Shown here piece after piece: positions 31,370 through 37,698 of a stretch of 64,000 bases of DNA. The translations under genes were made by a program, and so were the position numbers. Every line of letters begins with the position of its first letter. Position 1 is the first letter of the stretch. This DNA is from Thermofilaceae archaeon (GTDB lineage: Archaea; Thermoproteota; Thermoprotei; Thermofilales; Thermofilaceae). The stretch is from contig JANXEW010000001.1 in NCBI GenBank assembly GCA_025057995.1, positions 248,001 through 312,000 on the forward strand, read 5' to 3'. The notes beneath the pieces were generated by a model. It had not been told where the DNA came from. It searched no databases and was given only the letters and a program-made list of their open reading frames with translations.

Positions 31370-32374
31370 ATGAAGGTAACCTTAATCGGATGCGGGGGAA
31401 TGGGGGATTCACACTTGAGGGACCTTATCCAGTTGAGAGCCCAGGGCTTTGACGTGGAAGTCCATAGCTTGGTGGACGTGGACCTCTCCAAAGCGGAGCG
31501 GTTGCGCAGCAAGTACGGGTTAAAAGAAACTGCAACGGCTACAGATTACAGGCAGGTTCTAGGGAAGGTGGACGCCGCGATCATAGCAACGCCTCACGTT
31601 GAGCACTTCAACCAGATTATGGATTTTATCGCTTCTGGCGCGCACGTACTCGTTGAGAAACCAATGGTCTGCAACTTGAGACAGGCTCTCGAAGTGTATG
31701 AGGCTTGGAGGAAATCTGGTCTAGTCGTCGAGGTCGCATTCCAGCGCCATTTTGAGAAGCCTTGGGTGGCAGCTAGGAACCTCGTATCGAGGGGCATAAT
31801 AGGCGGGGTCGAAATGGTCTCCATGATACTTGGGCAATCCTATACGGGCGTTAAAGGTACTTGGAGAGCTGTACGCAAGATAAGTTGCGGGGGCGAACTG
31901 ATAGACAGCGGTAGTCACTTCATAGATGCGGCTCTCTGGATCACTGGGCTTAGGGCAGAGGAAGCGTTTGCGTACATGGATTACAGGGGGTTTGAGATCG
32001 ACATAAACGCTGCGCTTACGGCCAAGCTTGAAGGGGGAACGCTGCTTCTCTTTACTGTTGCGGGGGATGACCCTGGCTGGCTAGAGGTTGAGATCTTTTG
32101 GGGTGAACAAGGGCGTTTGATCGTACAGCCACCCGTCGTGCTCTTGCAGAAGAGAGGTGGAGAGGGTGAAGCCGTAAACATAGAAACTTACCCTGCTTCA
32201 CGCCCCGTTTTCAACTTCGTGAAATCCATCGAAGGGCTTGAAGAAAACGGTTGTCCACCGATATTCGGTCTACGGGTCCAAGAGCTTGCGGACGCTGCAT
32301 ACCGATCGACGGAGCTTGGAAGGCCGGTCAAGGTGTTAGAGCTCTACGAGGAGCTGGGTGCCAACAGACCCTAG
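31370..32374 (+). CDS. Gfo/Idh/MocA-family sugar/cyclitol oxidoreductase
   Basis: A 334-residue NAD(P)-dependent dehydrogenase. The Rossmann motif MKVTLIGCGGMGDSH begins at ATG 31370; the 27 extra residues in the track are upstream read-through containing an apparent TATA stretch (GCATTTTTAC). VLVEKPMVCNL holds the EKP catalytic lysine, and GGELIDSGSHFIDAALW is the substrate-binding motif. Typical substrates are sugars, inositols or their acids. The 3' end overlaps AMP phosphorylase by 4 bp, convergent. Confidence 0.92.
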   Translation: MKVTLIGCGGMGDSHLRDLIQLRAQGFDVEVHSLVDVDLSKAERLRSKYGLKETATATDYRQVLGKVDAAIIATPHVEHFNQIMDFIASGAHVLVEKPMVCNLRQALEVYEAWRKSGLVVEVAFQRHFEKPWVAARNLVSRGIIGGVEMVSMILGQSYTGVKGTWRAVRKISCGGELIDSGSHFIDAALWITGLRAEEAFAYMDYRGFEIDINAALTAKLEGGTLLLFTVAGDDPGWLEVEIFWGEQGRLIVQPPVVLLQKRGGEGEAVNIETYPASRPVFNFVKSIEGLEENGCPPIFGLRVQELADAAYRSTELGRPVKVLELYEELGANRP

Positions 32375-33915
32375 CGTCCAAGCGTTAACGGCTCGAGCGG
32401 CAGTTTAGGCTCCAACAGCTTTTTCAGTAACATATCGGTGCCTGGCTTCCCCAACTGAACTATAGGGTTGCTTTCAATGTACTTTTCAGCTAAGTGGAGT
32501 TTCGGAGAGTGTTCGCTGTACACCGTGATGAGGGGGTCGCCAACCCTCACGTGATCGCCGAGTTTCACGTGAAGCTCGACTCCAGAACCTTTATCCTTCG
32601 GAGCTCCAGCTAGCCTAGCTACCGTCGCAACACTGGTGTTATTGATCCACGTCACTATCCCGCCTCTCTCAGCCTTTAACGTGAAAGTTTTACCTCCTAC
32701 GGGGATGTCTTCCGGTTTGACTCCTGGGTCTCCGCCTTGAGCCTCTATTATCTCCAACATCTTCGCGTACGCTTTTCCACTCGTTAAAGCCTCCATAGCA
32801 GCTAGTCTTCCCTCTCTTACGCCGATAAGCTCTAAAAGTAGACCAACTAGACCCACAGCCTTATCAACGAGGTCTACCGGTCTAAAGCTAGTCAACGCTT
32901 GAAGAGCTTCCCTAGCTTCAAGCGCTGGTCCAGCTGTTCTACCTACCGGCTGGTCGCCGAACGTCGCCCCACATACAACGTAGAGCCCTAGCCTCCTACC
33001 CACTTCTATCAACGTTCTAGCCAAGTGTTCAGCCTCTCTCAGCGTCTTTACTTTAGTCCCCCTCCCTACCGGTATATCGACAACGACATGCGTGGCTCCG
33101 ACAGCCACTTTCTTCGCCATAATCGATGCTACGAGGAAGGGGTCGATTAAAAGCGGGTACTCCACCCTGATTATCTTGTCGTCGGCAGGGGCTAGACGCA
33201 GTGCTCCGCCCCACGCTATGCAGCCGCCAACCTTGAGGACAACACGCTTAATTTCTTCGATGGACAAGTTGACTGGCATGAGGACTTCAGCCCTGTCTGC
33301 AGTTCCAGCTGGGCTGGTGATCGCGCGGGAGCTAGTCTTAGGTATATGGTAGCCGAGTGAAGCTAGTATGGGGACTGCTATCAAAGTCGTCTTATCTCCA
33401 GGAACTCCACCGATGCTGTGTTTATCTAGGATTGGTTTTACGCCAAGCTCCAATCTTTCCCCGGTTTCAACCATAGCTTCAGCAAAGTAGAAGGCTTCCT
33501 CTACGCTAAGCCCCCGCTCCTCCGCTGCGACAACAAGGGCCGTTAACTCAACTTCGCTCAACCGGTCTTCAACTATGTCCTTCACTATCGTGTGAATTTC
33601 ATCCCGGGTCAACTGAACCCTGTTTATAAAGTCCCTGATGTAGAAGGTAGAACGGGGTTGAGAAGCTAGGTCAACCTCAACCTCATCCCCTTCTCTCAAC
33701 TTCAGCAACTCGGCAACTTCATCGTTAACTAACACTACGTCTGATGGCAAGTGACGCGCCACGTTAACGACAGCCACTGCTTCACCTACTCCATGTTTCA
33801 GTACTAAACGGTCGTGGGCGTGAGCGCCTAACGCTGACGCTACGCTGTCGTCTACCACGACTAAAGGTGTTCCGCTAGAAAAGCCGAGTAGCCTAACCTT
33901 TAGACGTAGACTCAC
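32371..33915 (-). CDS. deoA: AMP phosphorylase (archaeal DeoA-type nucleoside phosphorylase)
   Basis: A 514-residue enzyme with an archaeal N-terminal extension of about 85 residues before the thymidine-phosphorylase core. It shows LDKHSIGGVPGDKTTLIAVP (phosphate-binding), SSRAITSPAGTADRAEVL and the ending GDHVRVGDPLITVYSEHSPKLHLAEKY. In archaea this form splits NMPs to ribose 1,5-bisphosphate and base. The ribose-1,5-bisphosphate isomerase and RuBisCO of the pentose bisphosphate pathway are not in the window. GTG start. It follows the YjbQ/zinc-ribbon operon by 38 bp and may belong to it. Confidence 0.93.
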   Translation of the reverse strand: MSLRLKVRLLGFSSGTPLVVVDDSVASALGAHAHDRLVLKHGVGEAVAVVNVARHLPSDVVLVNDEVAELLKLREGDEVEVDLASQPRSTFYIRDFINRVQLTRDEIHTIVKDIVEDRLSEVELTALVVAAEERGLSVEEAFYFAEAMVETGERLELGVKPILDKHSIGGVPGDKTTLIAVPILASLGYHIPKTSSRAITSPAGTADRAEVLMPVNLSIEEIKRVVLKVGGCIAWGGALRLAPADDKIIRVEYPLLIDPFLVASIMAKKVAVGATHVVVDIPVGRGTKVKTLREAEHLARTLIEVGRRLGLYVVCGATFGDQPVGRTAGPALEAREALQALTSFRPVDLVDKAVGLVGLLLELIGVREGRLAAMEALTSGKAYAKMLEIIEAQGGDPGVKPEDIPVGGKTFTLKAERGGIVTWINNTSVATVARLAGAPKDKGSGVELHVKLGDHVRVGDPLITVYSEHSPKLHLAEKYIESNPIVQLGKPGTDMLLKKLLEPKLPLEPLTLGR

Positions 33916-33953: not shown

Positions 33954-34325
33954 CTACCGCTGCTCCTTGATGGAGTATATTGCTGAAACTATTAGCGGAG
34001 TTCCGCACTTCGGGCAGCTGCCTTTAGTTTTTAGAACATAGTCGCCAGCTTCATGGTTTCTTTCCTCGCTAAAACCACAGTTCTCGCAAGAGACTACTTC
34101 CATGAATCTCATACGCGTGATCTTCATCTTCCTCAGCCTATCTATACCGGTTAGCAGAAAGTACGCTGCGAAAAGGGTGAGTAAGGCTAGGTTCGCGTAG
34201 CTGCTTTCATTCGTCATGAAGTACATTAAAGCTAAGTGTAAGGCTATTACGATGACGACAATAAGCAGAACGACGTAGACGGGCAGCCATCGGGCCTTAA
34301 GTTCAGCAAGCTTTTCAAAACTCAT
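33954..34325 (-). CDS. Membrane protein with C-terminal zinc ribbon
   Basis: A 123-residue protein of unknown function. Two hydrophobic helices (WLPVYVVLLIVVIVIALHLA and NLALLTLFAAYFLLTGI) are followed by a four-cysteine ribbon, CENCGF and CPKCG, 23 residues apart. The ATG at 34325 overlaps the stop of the upstream YjbQ gene (ATGA) and is preferred to the track start two codons earlier. Third gene of the YjbQ-YjbQ-membrane group. The topology puts the ribbon on one face of the membrane, probably cytosolic. Confidence 0.8.
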   Translation of the reverse strand: MSFEKLAELKARWLPVYVVLLIVVIVIALHLALMYFMTNESSYANLALLTLFAAYFLLTGIDRLRKMKITRMRFMEVVSCENCGFSEERNHEAGDYVLKTKGSCPKCGTPLIVSAIYSIKEQR

Positions 34326-34759
34326 AGGCAACCACCGGCGCTATCCGCTAAACCGTGTTCGTCTGGAACGAGCAAAGCAGCTGTGACGCTTCTATGTCTT
34401 CTCACAGCCGGTTGGTTCTCGAGAAAGTATATGCCGCAATCCGTCAAGGGTAGAACACCTTTAACGACAGGCAGAGTTAAAGTCGTGCCTATAAGCGTCG
34501 AACGCAAGTGCGCGTAAGCGTTACCTGGGTGCTTCCAACCGAGAGTAGCTACCAGATCCCAGAGGTCGTTCTCGAAAGCTTCTACCACCTTCTGCTGTCT
34601 AGGTAGGATGACTAGCGCACCAGTCGAGCCGACCGCCTGGAGGGTTAATACTCCCTCCCACACGCCCTTAACCATTGATGATACTTTCTCCGTAATATCG
34701 AAGAGTTTGTTAGGTCCATGGGTTGAAAACTCGATCCTGAAAGTTTTAACAACTTTCAC
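34322..34759 (-). CDS. YjbQ/UPF0047-family protein, copy A (divergent)
   Basis: A 145-residue member of the UPF0047 trimeric family, proposed to bind metal or act on thiamine phosphates. GNAYAHLRSTLIGTTLTLPVV preserves the HLxxxLxG motif, but the usual HTT/E positions read VGSTGALVILPR (His and Glu lost), and the LGxWQxI strand reads LPLTDCGIYFLEN. The GTG start at 34759 overlaps the stop of copy B (GTGA); the 20 extra residues in the track are spurious. The C-terminus is longer than usual. Confidence 0.8.
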   Translation of the reverse strand: MKVVKTFRIEFSTHGPNKLFDITEKVSSMVKGVWEGVLTLQAVGSTGALVILPRQQKVVEAFENDLWDLVATLGWKHPGNAYAHLRSTLIGTTLTLPVVKGVLPLTDCGIYFLENQPAVRRHRSVTAALLVPDEHGLADSAGGCL

Positions 34760-35112
34760 GCGATCACCTCTAACAGTACTTTCCTCTCTCCGCTTGACTC
34801 GTTGAGATCGAGGAGGCATATCTGCTGGAATGCGCCTAGCAGCAAACCTTCTTCAAAAGGTATAGCTAGACTAGGTTGGAAGATTGATGCGATAACGTAA
34901 GGGTTTTTAGCCTTTAAACCGTCTATCAAGGTCATTAGATCGTCTATGAGGTCACCGTCGTACTCTATTGTTATAAGGCGGCACAACGGGTTCACGCTGT
35001 AGAGCAGGGCGATACCCTTCTTCAAGCCTGTAGACTTAACTGCTTTCTCGATGTCAAGCGTTATGTCGTAAACCCCTCTACCACCACTGTTAACCTTGAT
35101 TTCTGTTATCAC
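34756..35112 (-). CDS. YjbQ/UPF0047-family protein, copy B (divergent)
   Basis: A 118-residue second copy, first in the operon. The N-terminus ITEIKVNSGGRGVYDIT and the C-terminal GLLLGAFQQICLLDLNESSGERKVLL match the family; the Glu of the first motif is kept (LITIEYDGD), but the first-motif His is Asn (SVNPLCRL) and the AHL His is replaced (PYVIASIFQPS). GTG 35112 is chosen over the track start because a TATA-like GTTTATATC lies about 27 nt upstream. Motif losses are complementary to copy A. Confidence 0.8.
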   Translation of the reverse strand: MITEIKVNSGGRGVYDITLDIEKAVKSTGLKKGIALLYSVNPLCRLITIEYDGDLIDDLMTLIDGLKAKNPYVIASIFQPSLAIPFEEGLLLGAFQQICLLDLNESSGERKVLLEVIA

Positions 35113-35250
35113 GCAAGCAGCTTCACGCAGTCGGGATATAAACAATACTGCAATCCTCTCCTACAGCTATAGAACCTCTTTACGAAACCGTTCACCTTTA
35201 AGAAATTTTACGCAGAAGAAACTATTCCAAGACTTTGTTTCCGCGAAGGT

Positions 35251-35691
35251 TTAAACTAGTTTCTTCAACCTCCTAATACCCTGCTTGTCCGGAGCCCTAG
35301 TTAACGCTAGACTCTCCACTTCAAGCATTACGACTTCAGCTAAGTAAAGAACTCTGGATTTCTCTTCCAAATGTCCCCCGTAGACACTTTTCACGTCTGA
35401 TACGACAGCGTGGAGGTGAGGTTCCCCTCTTGCGACGACACCGTTCAGAGAAAGAAGCTCGAGAGGGGCATTTTCCCACACCAGCCTCTCCTCCTGCGGC
35501 GGGTAGCCGGTAGTAGTCACAGAATGCAGGTAGCAGCGGTCAAGCGTTCCGACGCCCGAAATTACGACAGCTGTTTCCAAACCCTCCTTCTCCGTAACGT
35601 CGACGATGCTCTCGAGAAGCATGTCACCGGGATCCAGCCGAAGAACTAAGACTCTACCAGTTGAACCGGTGAAGTACTCCAATTGGCCCAC
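35251..35691 (-). CDS. DUF296/PPC-domain protein
   Basis: A 146-residue PPC (plants and prokaryotes conserved) domain protein. The metal-binding motif GEPHLHAVVSDVKSVYGGHL is intact, as is VVISGVGTLDRCYLH. Archaeal and bacterial members are trimers of unclear function, some regulatory. The GTG start abuts the TAG stop of the RraA-like gene (TAG|GTG), so the two form an operon and may act in one pathway. Confidence 0.88.
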   Translation of the reverse strand: MGQLEYFTGSTGRVLVLRLDPGDMLLESIVDVTEKEGLETAVVISGVGTLDRCYLHSVTTTGYPPQEERLVWENAPLELLSLNGVVARGEPHLHAVVSDVKSVYGGHLEEKSRVLYLAEVVMLEVESLALTRAPDKQGIRRLKKLV

Positions 35692-36372
35692 CTATAGTCT
35701 TATACCGAGTTTCTCCAAGAGAGGCTTCTGCACGCTTCTATCAAGCTCAAGCTGCTTCAAAGCTCTCTCGAGCACGCCTTCAGCCACTTCCATCGGAACG
35801 ACGACAACCCCGTCGTAATCGCCTACTACGATATCCAGCGGACGCACAGTCACCCCTCCAACGGTCACAGGAACGTTGACGTCTCGTGAATTAAACTCCA
35901 GTCGCCCGACGACTTCAGTCCTACCATGGTACCTGCAGAAGGTTGGAAAACCTATCTTCTCAATCTCGCCTGCATCTCTAGCTCCACCGTCGATTACAGC
36001 TCCCTCAACGCCCTTAACCTTAGCGGAAAGGGCTACAGTCGAACCCCAGAAGCCTACATCTGGGCTGTGTAGAGCCTCGACAACTATCACAGTGCCTGGA
36101 CCCGCATGCTTCATAAAAAGTTCGTAGTTCGCTCTATCCCTGTACCATCCGTCAGCGTACTTGTCATACTCTTCAGGACTCATCGAAGGCATCTCCTCTT
36201 GCGCGCGCCTAGTCCTAACGGTGACCGCGTAGCCAGCTAATTTCGCATTAGGGTATAAGGGTCTAATATCCCTGGAAACGAGAACGTTACCATGGAACCC
36301 GTAGCGGTCAAGAGCGTCAATCACGTCAGCAACTCTAACCAGCTTAAACTTCTCCACTAGCCTAAGGTCCAC
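35692..36372 (-). CDS. RraA/HMG-aldolase family protein
   Basis: A 226-residue protein with the RraA fold. EGAVIDGGARDAGEI (usually GxVxDGxxRD) carries the metal and pyruvate-enolate residues, VVGDYDGVVVVPMEVAE is the second hallmark, and FKLVRVADVIDALDRYG the N-terminal one. The conserved RD residues point to 4-hydroxy-4-methyl-2-oxoglutarate aldolase/oxaloacetate decarboxylase activity rather than RNase E control, since archaea lack RNase E regulation of that kind. GTG 36372 is favoured over TTG 36378 by the TATA-like CTATTTTTAAC about 26 nt upstream. Confidence 0.88.
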   Translation of the reverse strand: MDLRLVEKFKLVRVADVIDALDRYGFHGNVLVSRDIRPLYPNAKLAGYAVTVRTRRAQEEMPSMSPEEYDKYADGWYRDRANYELFMKHAGPGTVIVVEALHSPDVGFWGSTVALSAKVKGVEGAVIDGGARDAGEIEKIGFPTFCRYHGRTEVVGRLEFNSRDVNVPVTVGGVTVRPLDIVVGDYDGVVVVPMEVAEGVLERALKQLELDRSVQKPLLEKLGIRL

Positions 36373-36630
36373 GCACAAAGATACAACTTAGAGTTAAAAA
36401 TAGGTTGCCAGACGAATGCTACAAGCCTTGAAATGAGCCTCACTCCTCTTCTCCACACGCGACCAAAGGCCGTAAGATTTTTCACTCCAAGCTGGGCGCT
36501 TGCACCCTGGACTACCGGCGAACGTAAACTCTCCCGCAGTTGAGCGAGAGACTGTGTAGAAGACCTAGGCTCCACATTCACATAGTAAACAGAAGAGCTC
36601 CATTTTCATTCGCACGACTAAGTTTTCCGT

Positions 36631-37698
36631 TTACTCCGTTACCCCCTTTACCGTAGTTTCTAAGATACTTTTATAGAAGCAAGAAGGCTGAAGTTCAGTG
36701 AACCCGCCTACCTCGAGAGCTAAGTGTAACCTGATGTCGAGGCAGAAGTGACATCGCGAGATGTAACCTTCCTCCCTTTCTTTGTAACCGTATCCACCGA
36801 CAGCCAGTTTGTAGAGGTCGCCTAAACTGTTCCGGAGGGCGGCTAAAACGGGCTTATCGTCCAAGTTCACCCCTTGCAACAGTTCTTTCAGCTTCCTCGC
36901 ATCGCCTAAGGATAAGCCAGCGCAGTAGCCTGGGATGTAATTGTAGTAGCAGTCAACGTGTACGTGCCAGGGTCGCGTCAACTCCTCAGCACATGATGTC
37001 TTGAAGAACTCCTTAGCTGGTTTAGTTTTGTACAGTTTCCTGAGCGTGTACACTAGTCTACCCATGGGAAGCAGTAGACTCGGGTCGAAACCCCTTAGGA
37101 AAAGGTAAGGGTCAACTCTAGCAGCCTTCTCCAAGTACTCCTCGAAGCGTAAAGTACCTCTTACGCTTAATTTGCGGAGTAGCGTTAGGTAGAGAGTGTG
37201 GTAGACGAGCACGTTCTGGGGGTTGAAGACTTCTACAGCCGCCGTAATCCCGTTTTCAACCCTCTCCAAGGGTATGTTCTCAATCAAGAAAGGGTTTACG
37301 CTAAGGAGGACGCCTTCGAGACCAGTCTCCCGTAGTTCATTAAACTTTTCGATTGCAATTTCCTCGCTCAAACACCAGAAACAGTTAGTCTCGACGAAGA
37401 CCGAAGGGTAGCCTAACCCCTCTGCTAAACGTACAGCCCTTTTGAGGAGAGGATAGTTCAGAAAGGGCTCTCCGCCAGTGAAATGTAATCCCTCGTTTAC
37501 GCCTACTCGACCTCTAGGAGAGCTTGGCACTATGGACGGCGCAAGCTCCTTGAGAACTTTAAGCAAGCCCGCTTCATCGATCCAGTCGTTAGGCATACGA
37601 GGTGAGCAGGCGTACATGCAATGTTTACACTCGCACGTACACCTGTAGGTTAAGAGTATGCCAGCGGACGCTGGAGGCTTCGGCCTTAAAGTATCCAT
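36631..37698 (-). CDS. Radical SAM protein with extra C-terminal cysteines
   Basis: A 355-residue radical SAM enzyme. The cluster motif CTCECKHC (CxxxCxxC) is at residues about 20-27, and the SAM-binding HFTGGEPFLN at 75-84. Further cysteines occur as SCAEELT, DCYYNYIPGYC, SRCHFC and PSCFY, which suggest an auxiliary Fe-S cluster of SPASM/Twitch type. The product is unknown; no small peptide substrate was found beside it. It follows the DMT transporter by 36 bp in the same direction, so the product may be exported by it. Confidence 0.88.
   Translation of the reverse strand: MDTLRPKPPASAGILLTYRCTCECKHCMYACSPRMPNDWIDEAGLLKVLKELAPSIVPSSPRGRVGVNEGLHFTGGEPFLNYPLLKRAVRLAEGLGYPSVFVETNCFWCLSEEIAIEKFNELRETGLEGVLLSVNPFLIENIPLERVENGITAAVEVFNPQNVLVYHTLYLTLLRKLSVRGTLRFEEYLEKAARVDPYLFLRGFDPSLLLPMGRLVYTLRKLYKTKPAKEFFKTSCAEELTRPWHVHVDCYYNYIPGYCAGLSLGDARKLKELLQGVNLDDKPVLAALRNSLGDLYKLAVGGYGYKEREEGYISRCHFCLDIRLHLALEVGGFTELQPSCFYKSILETTVKGVTE

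Follow-up and report, generated by a model that had tools for sequence, protein, structure and literature searches.

Proteins of the UPF0047/YjbQ family (PF01894) occur very widely and have been well sampled by structure determination; their function is unexplained. Relatives in the PDB contain three or six chains (1xbf, 2cu5, and 1vph), and 2CU5 belongs to a data set of trimers (PMC7582526). Overexpression of yjbQ compensates for the loss of thiE, according to a report cited in a later paper (Morett 2008, cited in PMC11551756), and the TIGR00149 family is named secondary thiamine-phosphate synthase YjbQ. The canonical proteins carry in one chain His53, Asn61-Glu62, Asp70, His87, His97, and GTWQ (numbering of the canonical copy of the host genome, as aligned here), and three of these positions (53, 87, and 97) make up the family histidines. 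Outside the family, the crenarchaeal tRNA-splicing endonuclease is a heteromer that arose from a duplicated homomeric enzyme. The likeness to the locus described here lies in the phylum, in the duplication of a homo-oligomer, and in copies that take complementary parts in one complex; yet the folds are unrelated, and in the endonuclease catalysis stays with one subunit and the assembly features with its partner, whereas here the motif residues themselves are divided. A literature search retrieved no paper on split or paired UPF0047 proteins, and a broader search for comparable heteromers was also empty.

Two Divergent UPF0047 Genes in Tandem

The window, that is, the whole 64,000-nucleotide stretch analysed, comes from a genome of 1.8 Mb (91% complete), the near relatives of which are Thermofilales/Thermofilaceae metagenome-assembled genomes. 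On its minus strand, four genes follow each other in the order of transcription B, A, zinc-ribbon membrane gene, and AMP phosphorylase. Gene B (34756..35112, minus strand) encodes a UPF0047 half-site paralogue of 118 amino acids from a GTG at 35112; the frame is open up to a TTG at 35145, and GTG 35112 is the start conserved among the 17 orthologues compared. Gene A (34322..34759, minus strand), the second half-site paralogue, encodes 145 amino acids and begins with a GTG that forms a 4-nt overlap with the TGA stop of B. The zinc-ribbon membrane gene (33954..34325, minus strand) has two hydrophobic stretches, recognized by eye, and a CxxC...CxxC pattern; no Pfam family scored over its cut-off for this protein. 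Its start (34323-34325) overlaps the stop of A (34322-34324) in an ATGA, and the AMP phosphorylase gene (32371-33915, minus strand) is a match to TIGR03327. Both gene overlaps, GTGA and ATGA (34322-34325), had been recorded in the preliminary description of the locus and are confirmed, as is the family assignment: against PF01894, A scores 50.1 and B 40.3 bits, above the gathering cut-off of 27. Similar scores (43.6 for A and 43.5 for B) are given by the proteins of the second of the two tiers into which the pairs collected here are sorted. In contrast, the TIGR00149 cut-off of 67.75 bits is reached neither by A (39.1) and B (26.4) nor by their second-tier counterparts (35.3 and 42.7, respectively). 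The host genome also contains a canonical UPF0047 gene (124 bits), on contig C44, the pair being on contig C11. Upstream of the pair, PCC/DUF296-domain, RraA-like aldolase, and radical SAM genes stand in tandem (window 35251-37698); this block recurs in a few genomes of the same genus only, in two of them about 2 kb from the pair.

The Conserved Unit Comprises B and A

Profiles of A and of B were each searched over the same 398 Thermoproteota genomes. Strong matches to the two profiles fell in the same 29 genomes and neither gene ever occurred alone, although genome counts of this kind are not phylogenetically independent. Sixteen of these genomes belong to the class of the window (five families) and thirteen to another class (four families); a further search of the latter yielded 30 A genes. 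In all of the 37 neighbourhoods compared, B immediately precedes A on the same strand, both frames are open, and a possible start of A lies near the end of B, within a range from 38 nt upstream of it to 34 nt downstream. Among the relatives of the window, the 4-nt overlap is common. When open reading frames of the 37 neighbourhoods were clustered, A and B were recovered at every locus and any other family in at most seven; no conserved neighbour gene beyond A and B was found across the 37 loci. The pairwise distances among A proteins and those among B proteins are also correlated (r 0.89, against a maximum of 0.43 in shuffled comparisons). With identical 29-genome distributions, fixed order at 37/37 loci, and correlated distances, an obligate partnership of A and B is well supported and, judged by genome comparison, nearly certain. 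Conversely, it is quite improbable that A and B were separately neofunctionalised within one operon, with neither a complex nor a site in common. Each of the two has lineage-specific invariants, and each chain, above all B, is predicted to fold well by itself, as separate functions would allow; yet one is never found without the other in 398 genomes, order and overlap are kept while all other neighbours change, and the two motif sets together account for most of the site of a single-chain relative (see below).

A few associations of limited range were also observed. Only a few loci share a primase-like gene or ABC-type genes; in several second-tier genomes (five noted), a gene resembling that of an archaeal DNA primase subunit is located a few kb or less from the pair. 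No phage homologues of A were found.

The zinc-ribbon membrane protein had been proposed to tether A and B to the membrane, as the third member of a unit to be sought in relatives. The ATGA overlap in the window speaks for such a complex, and so does the same adjacency in the genus of the window and two close genera, where the AMP phosphorylase gene is also present; these are the only lineages in which the zinc-ribbon gene adjoins the pair (6/37 neighbourhoods). However, 40 of 61 relatives have a single copy of the gene, irrespective of the pair (it is present in pair-less genomes, five of them noted as examples); it is missing from most pair neighbourhoods, and in the other pair genomes in which it was located it lies elsewhere, on a contig other than that of the pair in six genomes and others. 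Being widespread, present without the pair, and adjoining it only in close relatives, the zinc-ribbon gene reflects local gene order and is not part of the unit. A three-gene membrane complex is thus very improbable, and a membrane tether as a general feature is contradicted by this distribution. The conserved unit consists of two genes, B and A, and not three. The small zinc-ribbon protein itself (33954-34325 in the window; L174-L203 among the collected sequences) is encoded by a single-copy gene in nearly all Thermofilales examined and in part of the wider class.

Motif Residues Are Divided between A and B

Thirty A/B pairs (17 of the first tier and 13 of the second) were aligned with 31 canonical proteins of relatives. 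Neither A nor B carries the full canonical set. Protein A keeps two family histidines (87 and 97) and B none. In A, Thr55, His87, Asn93, Ala94, and His97 are retained in 30/30 sequences and Pro80 in 28/30; Gly replaces His53 throughout (30/30), Asn61, Asp70, and Gly119-Thr-Trp-Gln are missing, and Glu62 is present in only two of the 30. In the window (minus strand), the canonical HAT/HTT at 53-55 corresponds to a GSTG loop (34619..34630; Gly 30/30, Thr 30/30), and His87, Asn93, and His97 fall within W-K-H-P-G-N-A-Y-A-H-L-R-S (34499..34537), where His77 of A (in W-K-H) is canonical His87 and His84 (in NAYAHL) is canonical His97. In the strand that follows the lost GTWQ, A carries F-L-E-N-Q (34412..34426, minus strand); ENQ is invariant in 17/17 first-tier A proteins and ETR occupies the same place in the second tier. 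Protein B retains a different set: Glu62, Asp/Glu64, Asp70, Gly119, and an aromatic residue at 121 are each found in 30/30, and His53, Thr55, and Asn61 are absent. The B protein of the window keeps TIEY and LGAFQQI; its Glu50-Tyr51-Asp52...Leu55...Asp58 (34939..34965, minus strand) aligns with canonical Glu62, 63, Glu64, Leu67, and Asp70, the Glu, Tyr, Asp/Glu, Leu, and Asp of this block being each present in 30/30 B and not conserved in A, and GAFQQ (34822..34836, minus strand) matches canonical G119-T-W121-Q122 (Gly 30/30, Phe/Trp 30/30), which A lacks. At position 122, B has Gln in 17/30 and Lys in 13/30; the former is seen in all 17 first-tier and the latter in all 13 second-tier proteins (e.g. 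L084), possibly a clade-specific change within the proposed shared site.

These sets largely agree with the preliminary description, in which A had lost the first His, the Glu, and the LGxWQxI strand, and B had kept the Glu and LGAFQQI without any family His; the single His then attributed to A has to be corrected to two of three. The missing residues are not merely shifted, as the segment, or loop, that carries His87 and Asn93 is deleted in B. Moreover, the kept segments interleave along the canonical sequence (62-70 and 119-122 in B, 80-97 in A), and the division is thus not a front/back truncation. The exclusivity of the kept residues is nonetheless no greater than expected from random allocation (two canonical positions kept by both, six by A only, six by B only, and 13 by neither; Fisher p 0.56), so that complementarity alone is not the argument.

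Both genes are under purifying selection, with dN/dS of about 0.1-0.4 between close relatives, a comparison in which dS is high. In principle, A and B could be copies in decay of a canonical UPF0047 gene that is intact elsewhere in the genome, and both lack some family residues; still, with motifs invariant across nine families, such dN/dS values, and both frames open at 37/37 loci, this explanation retains next to no probability and is refuted by the conservation of A and B.

A Single-Chain Relative Carries Most of Both Sets

Among the bacterial matches of the A search we met an unsplit protein from Gastranaerophilales (L063), the first member of a single-chain UPF0047 subfamily, here termed D-type, with the pattern GST...TIEYEPGL...HDGNGHSHVRAS...GTWQQ. 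D-type proteins occur in other Thermoproteota classes and in Gastranaerophilales bacteria, where D-type-like proteins were found in most of the 117 genomes sampled (sequences L205-L228 are from Gastranaerophilales; L229-L248 are archaeal, except L243 and L246). One chain carries Gly53-Ser-Thr55, (I/L)61-Glu62-(Y/F)63-Glu64, Leu67, and Asp70, and further along His87, Asn93, His97, Arg99, and Gly119-x-Trp121-Gln122-Gln123. Hence, most of what A/B distribute over two genes lies in one gene and one chain. Like the pair, D-type proteins lack His53 (Gly53 in 93% of them) and Asn61; these two residues were therefore probably not lost in the A/B pair. D-type proteins share Gly53, Gly92, and mostly Arg99 with A, and Tyr63 with B, as well as Gln123 with first-tier B; the diagnostic residues G22, G53, Y63, G92, R99, L118, and Q123 are divided between A and B. 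The correspondence is not complete: at positions 94 and 100 D-type proteins have Gly94/Ala100 where A has the canonical Ala94 and Ser100, and they contain a Trp insertion absent from A and B. Unlike A and B, D-type proteins pass TIGR00149 (108.9 and 79.6 bits; canonical, 143.6). In databases, they are filed under the YjbQ name, although they have neither the first His nor the NE asparagine.

D-type proteins (at least 174 bits) are encoded in 66 of the 398 genomes, none of which is among the 29 with the pair, an exclusion that is descriptive and gives no independent statistical test, given that D-type and pair live in different classes. Likewise, no D-type protein was found in seventeen further pair genomes or in the window's own genome. 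This mutual exclusion suggests that D-type and pair have a common role, and that the canonical copy, also retained in pair genomes, has a different one.

Phylogeny

In the tree of the paired proteins, A forms one clade and B another, each including both tiers (support 100/98 each); in a second tree with all types, the two clades recur at 100/99 and 96/91, and canonical proteins are separated, with support 97/98, from the group of A, B, and D-type. The split thus appears to have happened once. Approximately unbiased tests did not reject the grouping of A+B or of B+C (p-AU 0.23 and 0.40, respectively), and the tree does not fix the order in which A, B, and D-type branched. The gene pair is ancient.

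Predicted Structures

AlphaFold2 monomer models were built from two 17-row alignments (A, pLDDT 86.3 and pTM 0.81; B, pLDDT 95.8 and pTM 0.87). In Foldseek searches of the PDB, all 17 matches at E<=1e-3 were UPF0047 structures, for the A model and for the B model. A and B thus have in common with UPF0047/YjbQ the predicted fold, and differ from it in an incomplete residue set and in their tandem arrangement. The B model is uniformly confident; in A, residues 71-80, which hold His77, are the least confident before the C-terminal tail (pLDDT 63), a weakness in the model that is compatible with a loop needing a partner.

The poor order of this His loop when A is modelled alone would also suit a heteromer without composite site, in which one subunit, A, is catalytic and B a pseudo-enzyme acting as stabiliser or regulator (or the reverse). 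Enzyme/pseudo-enzyme pairs are common, and A has both remaining family His together with new invariants (TxGP, ENQ/ETR, and Arg). We nevertheless consider this arrangement unlikely, since B keeps the other family motif residues in 30/30 sequences over deep divergence, with Tyr63 as in D-type, and a subunit acting only as scaffold would not require these residues.

Proposed Evolutionary Model

We propose that a D-type-like single-chain protein was duplicated and split, and that A and B are the resulting half-site subunits of a heteromeric enzyme, a reading that we hold to be probable. A pair that is always together, in the same order, across a large archaeal group probably builds one shared site. 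The obligate heteromer with a shared site suggested at the outset is hence upheld as far as the partnership is concerned, through distribution and order, and the shared site gains indirect support from the D-type sequences and from their mutual exclusion with the pair in the genomes sampled. Such an active site would probably lie where the two proteins meet; we infer that they form a heteromer, that each half lines a common interface from its own side, and that the complex is catalytic. The ancestor would presumably have been a homomer, each chain of which had a His/Asn half (His87, Asn93, His97, and the GST loop) as well as a Glu/aromatic/Gln half (Glu62, Asp70, and Gly119-Trp121-Gln122), the two meeting across the subunit interface. 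Following tandem duplication, one copy (A) may have kept the His/Asn half only and the other (B) the Glu/aromatic/Gln half only, so that a complete site would now be assembled by the A:B interface alone. If so, A and B must be made together, which fits their overlapping genes. That an interface-spanning site of a homo-oligomer underwent a single split close to the root of two related Thermoproteota classes, and was then inherited only as a pair, seems moderately probable, and we would lean to a comparable degree toward duplication and complementary loss inside a single active site as part of the same history. Several observations count against the half-site model: at Ala94 and Ser100, A agrees with canonical and not with D-type proteins; Gln122 of B is Lys in 13 sequences; chance allocation would produce an equal exclusivity of retained residues; the tree leaves the placement of A and B relative to each other unfixed; and the genome counts are not independent, D-type and pair being found in different classes.

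The A/B pair is older and wider than the window alone could show. In a family so widespread and so well sampled structurally, this natural split reveals two groups of residues that each behave as a unit, and leads to a prediction of which residues face each other across the interface. If true, it would be a clean case in which complementary loss made a heteromer obligate.
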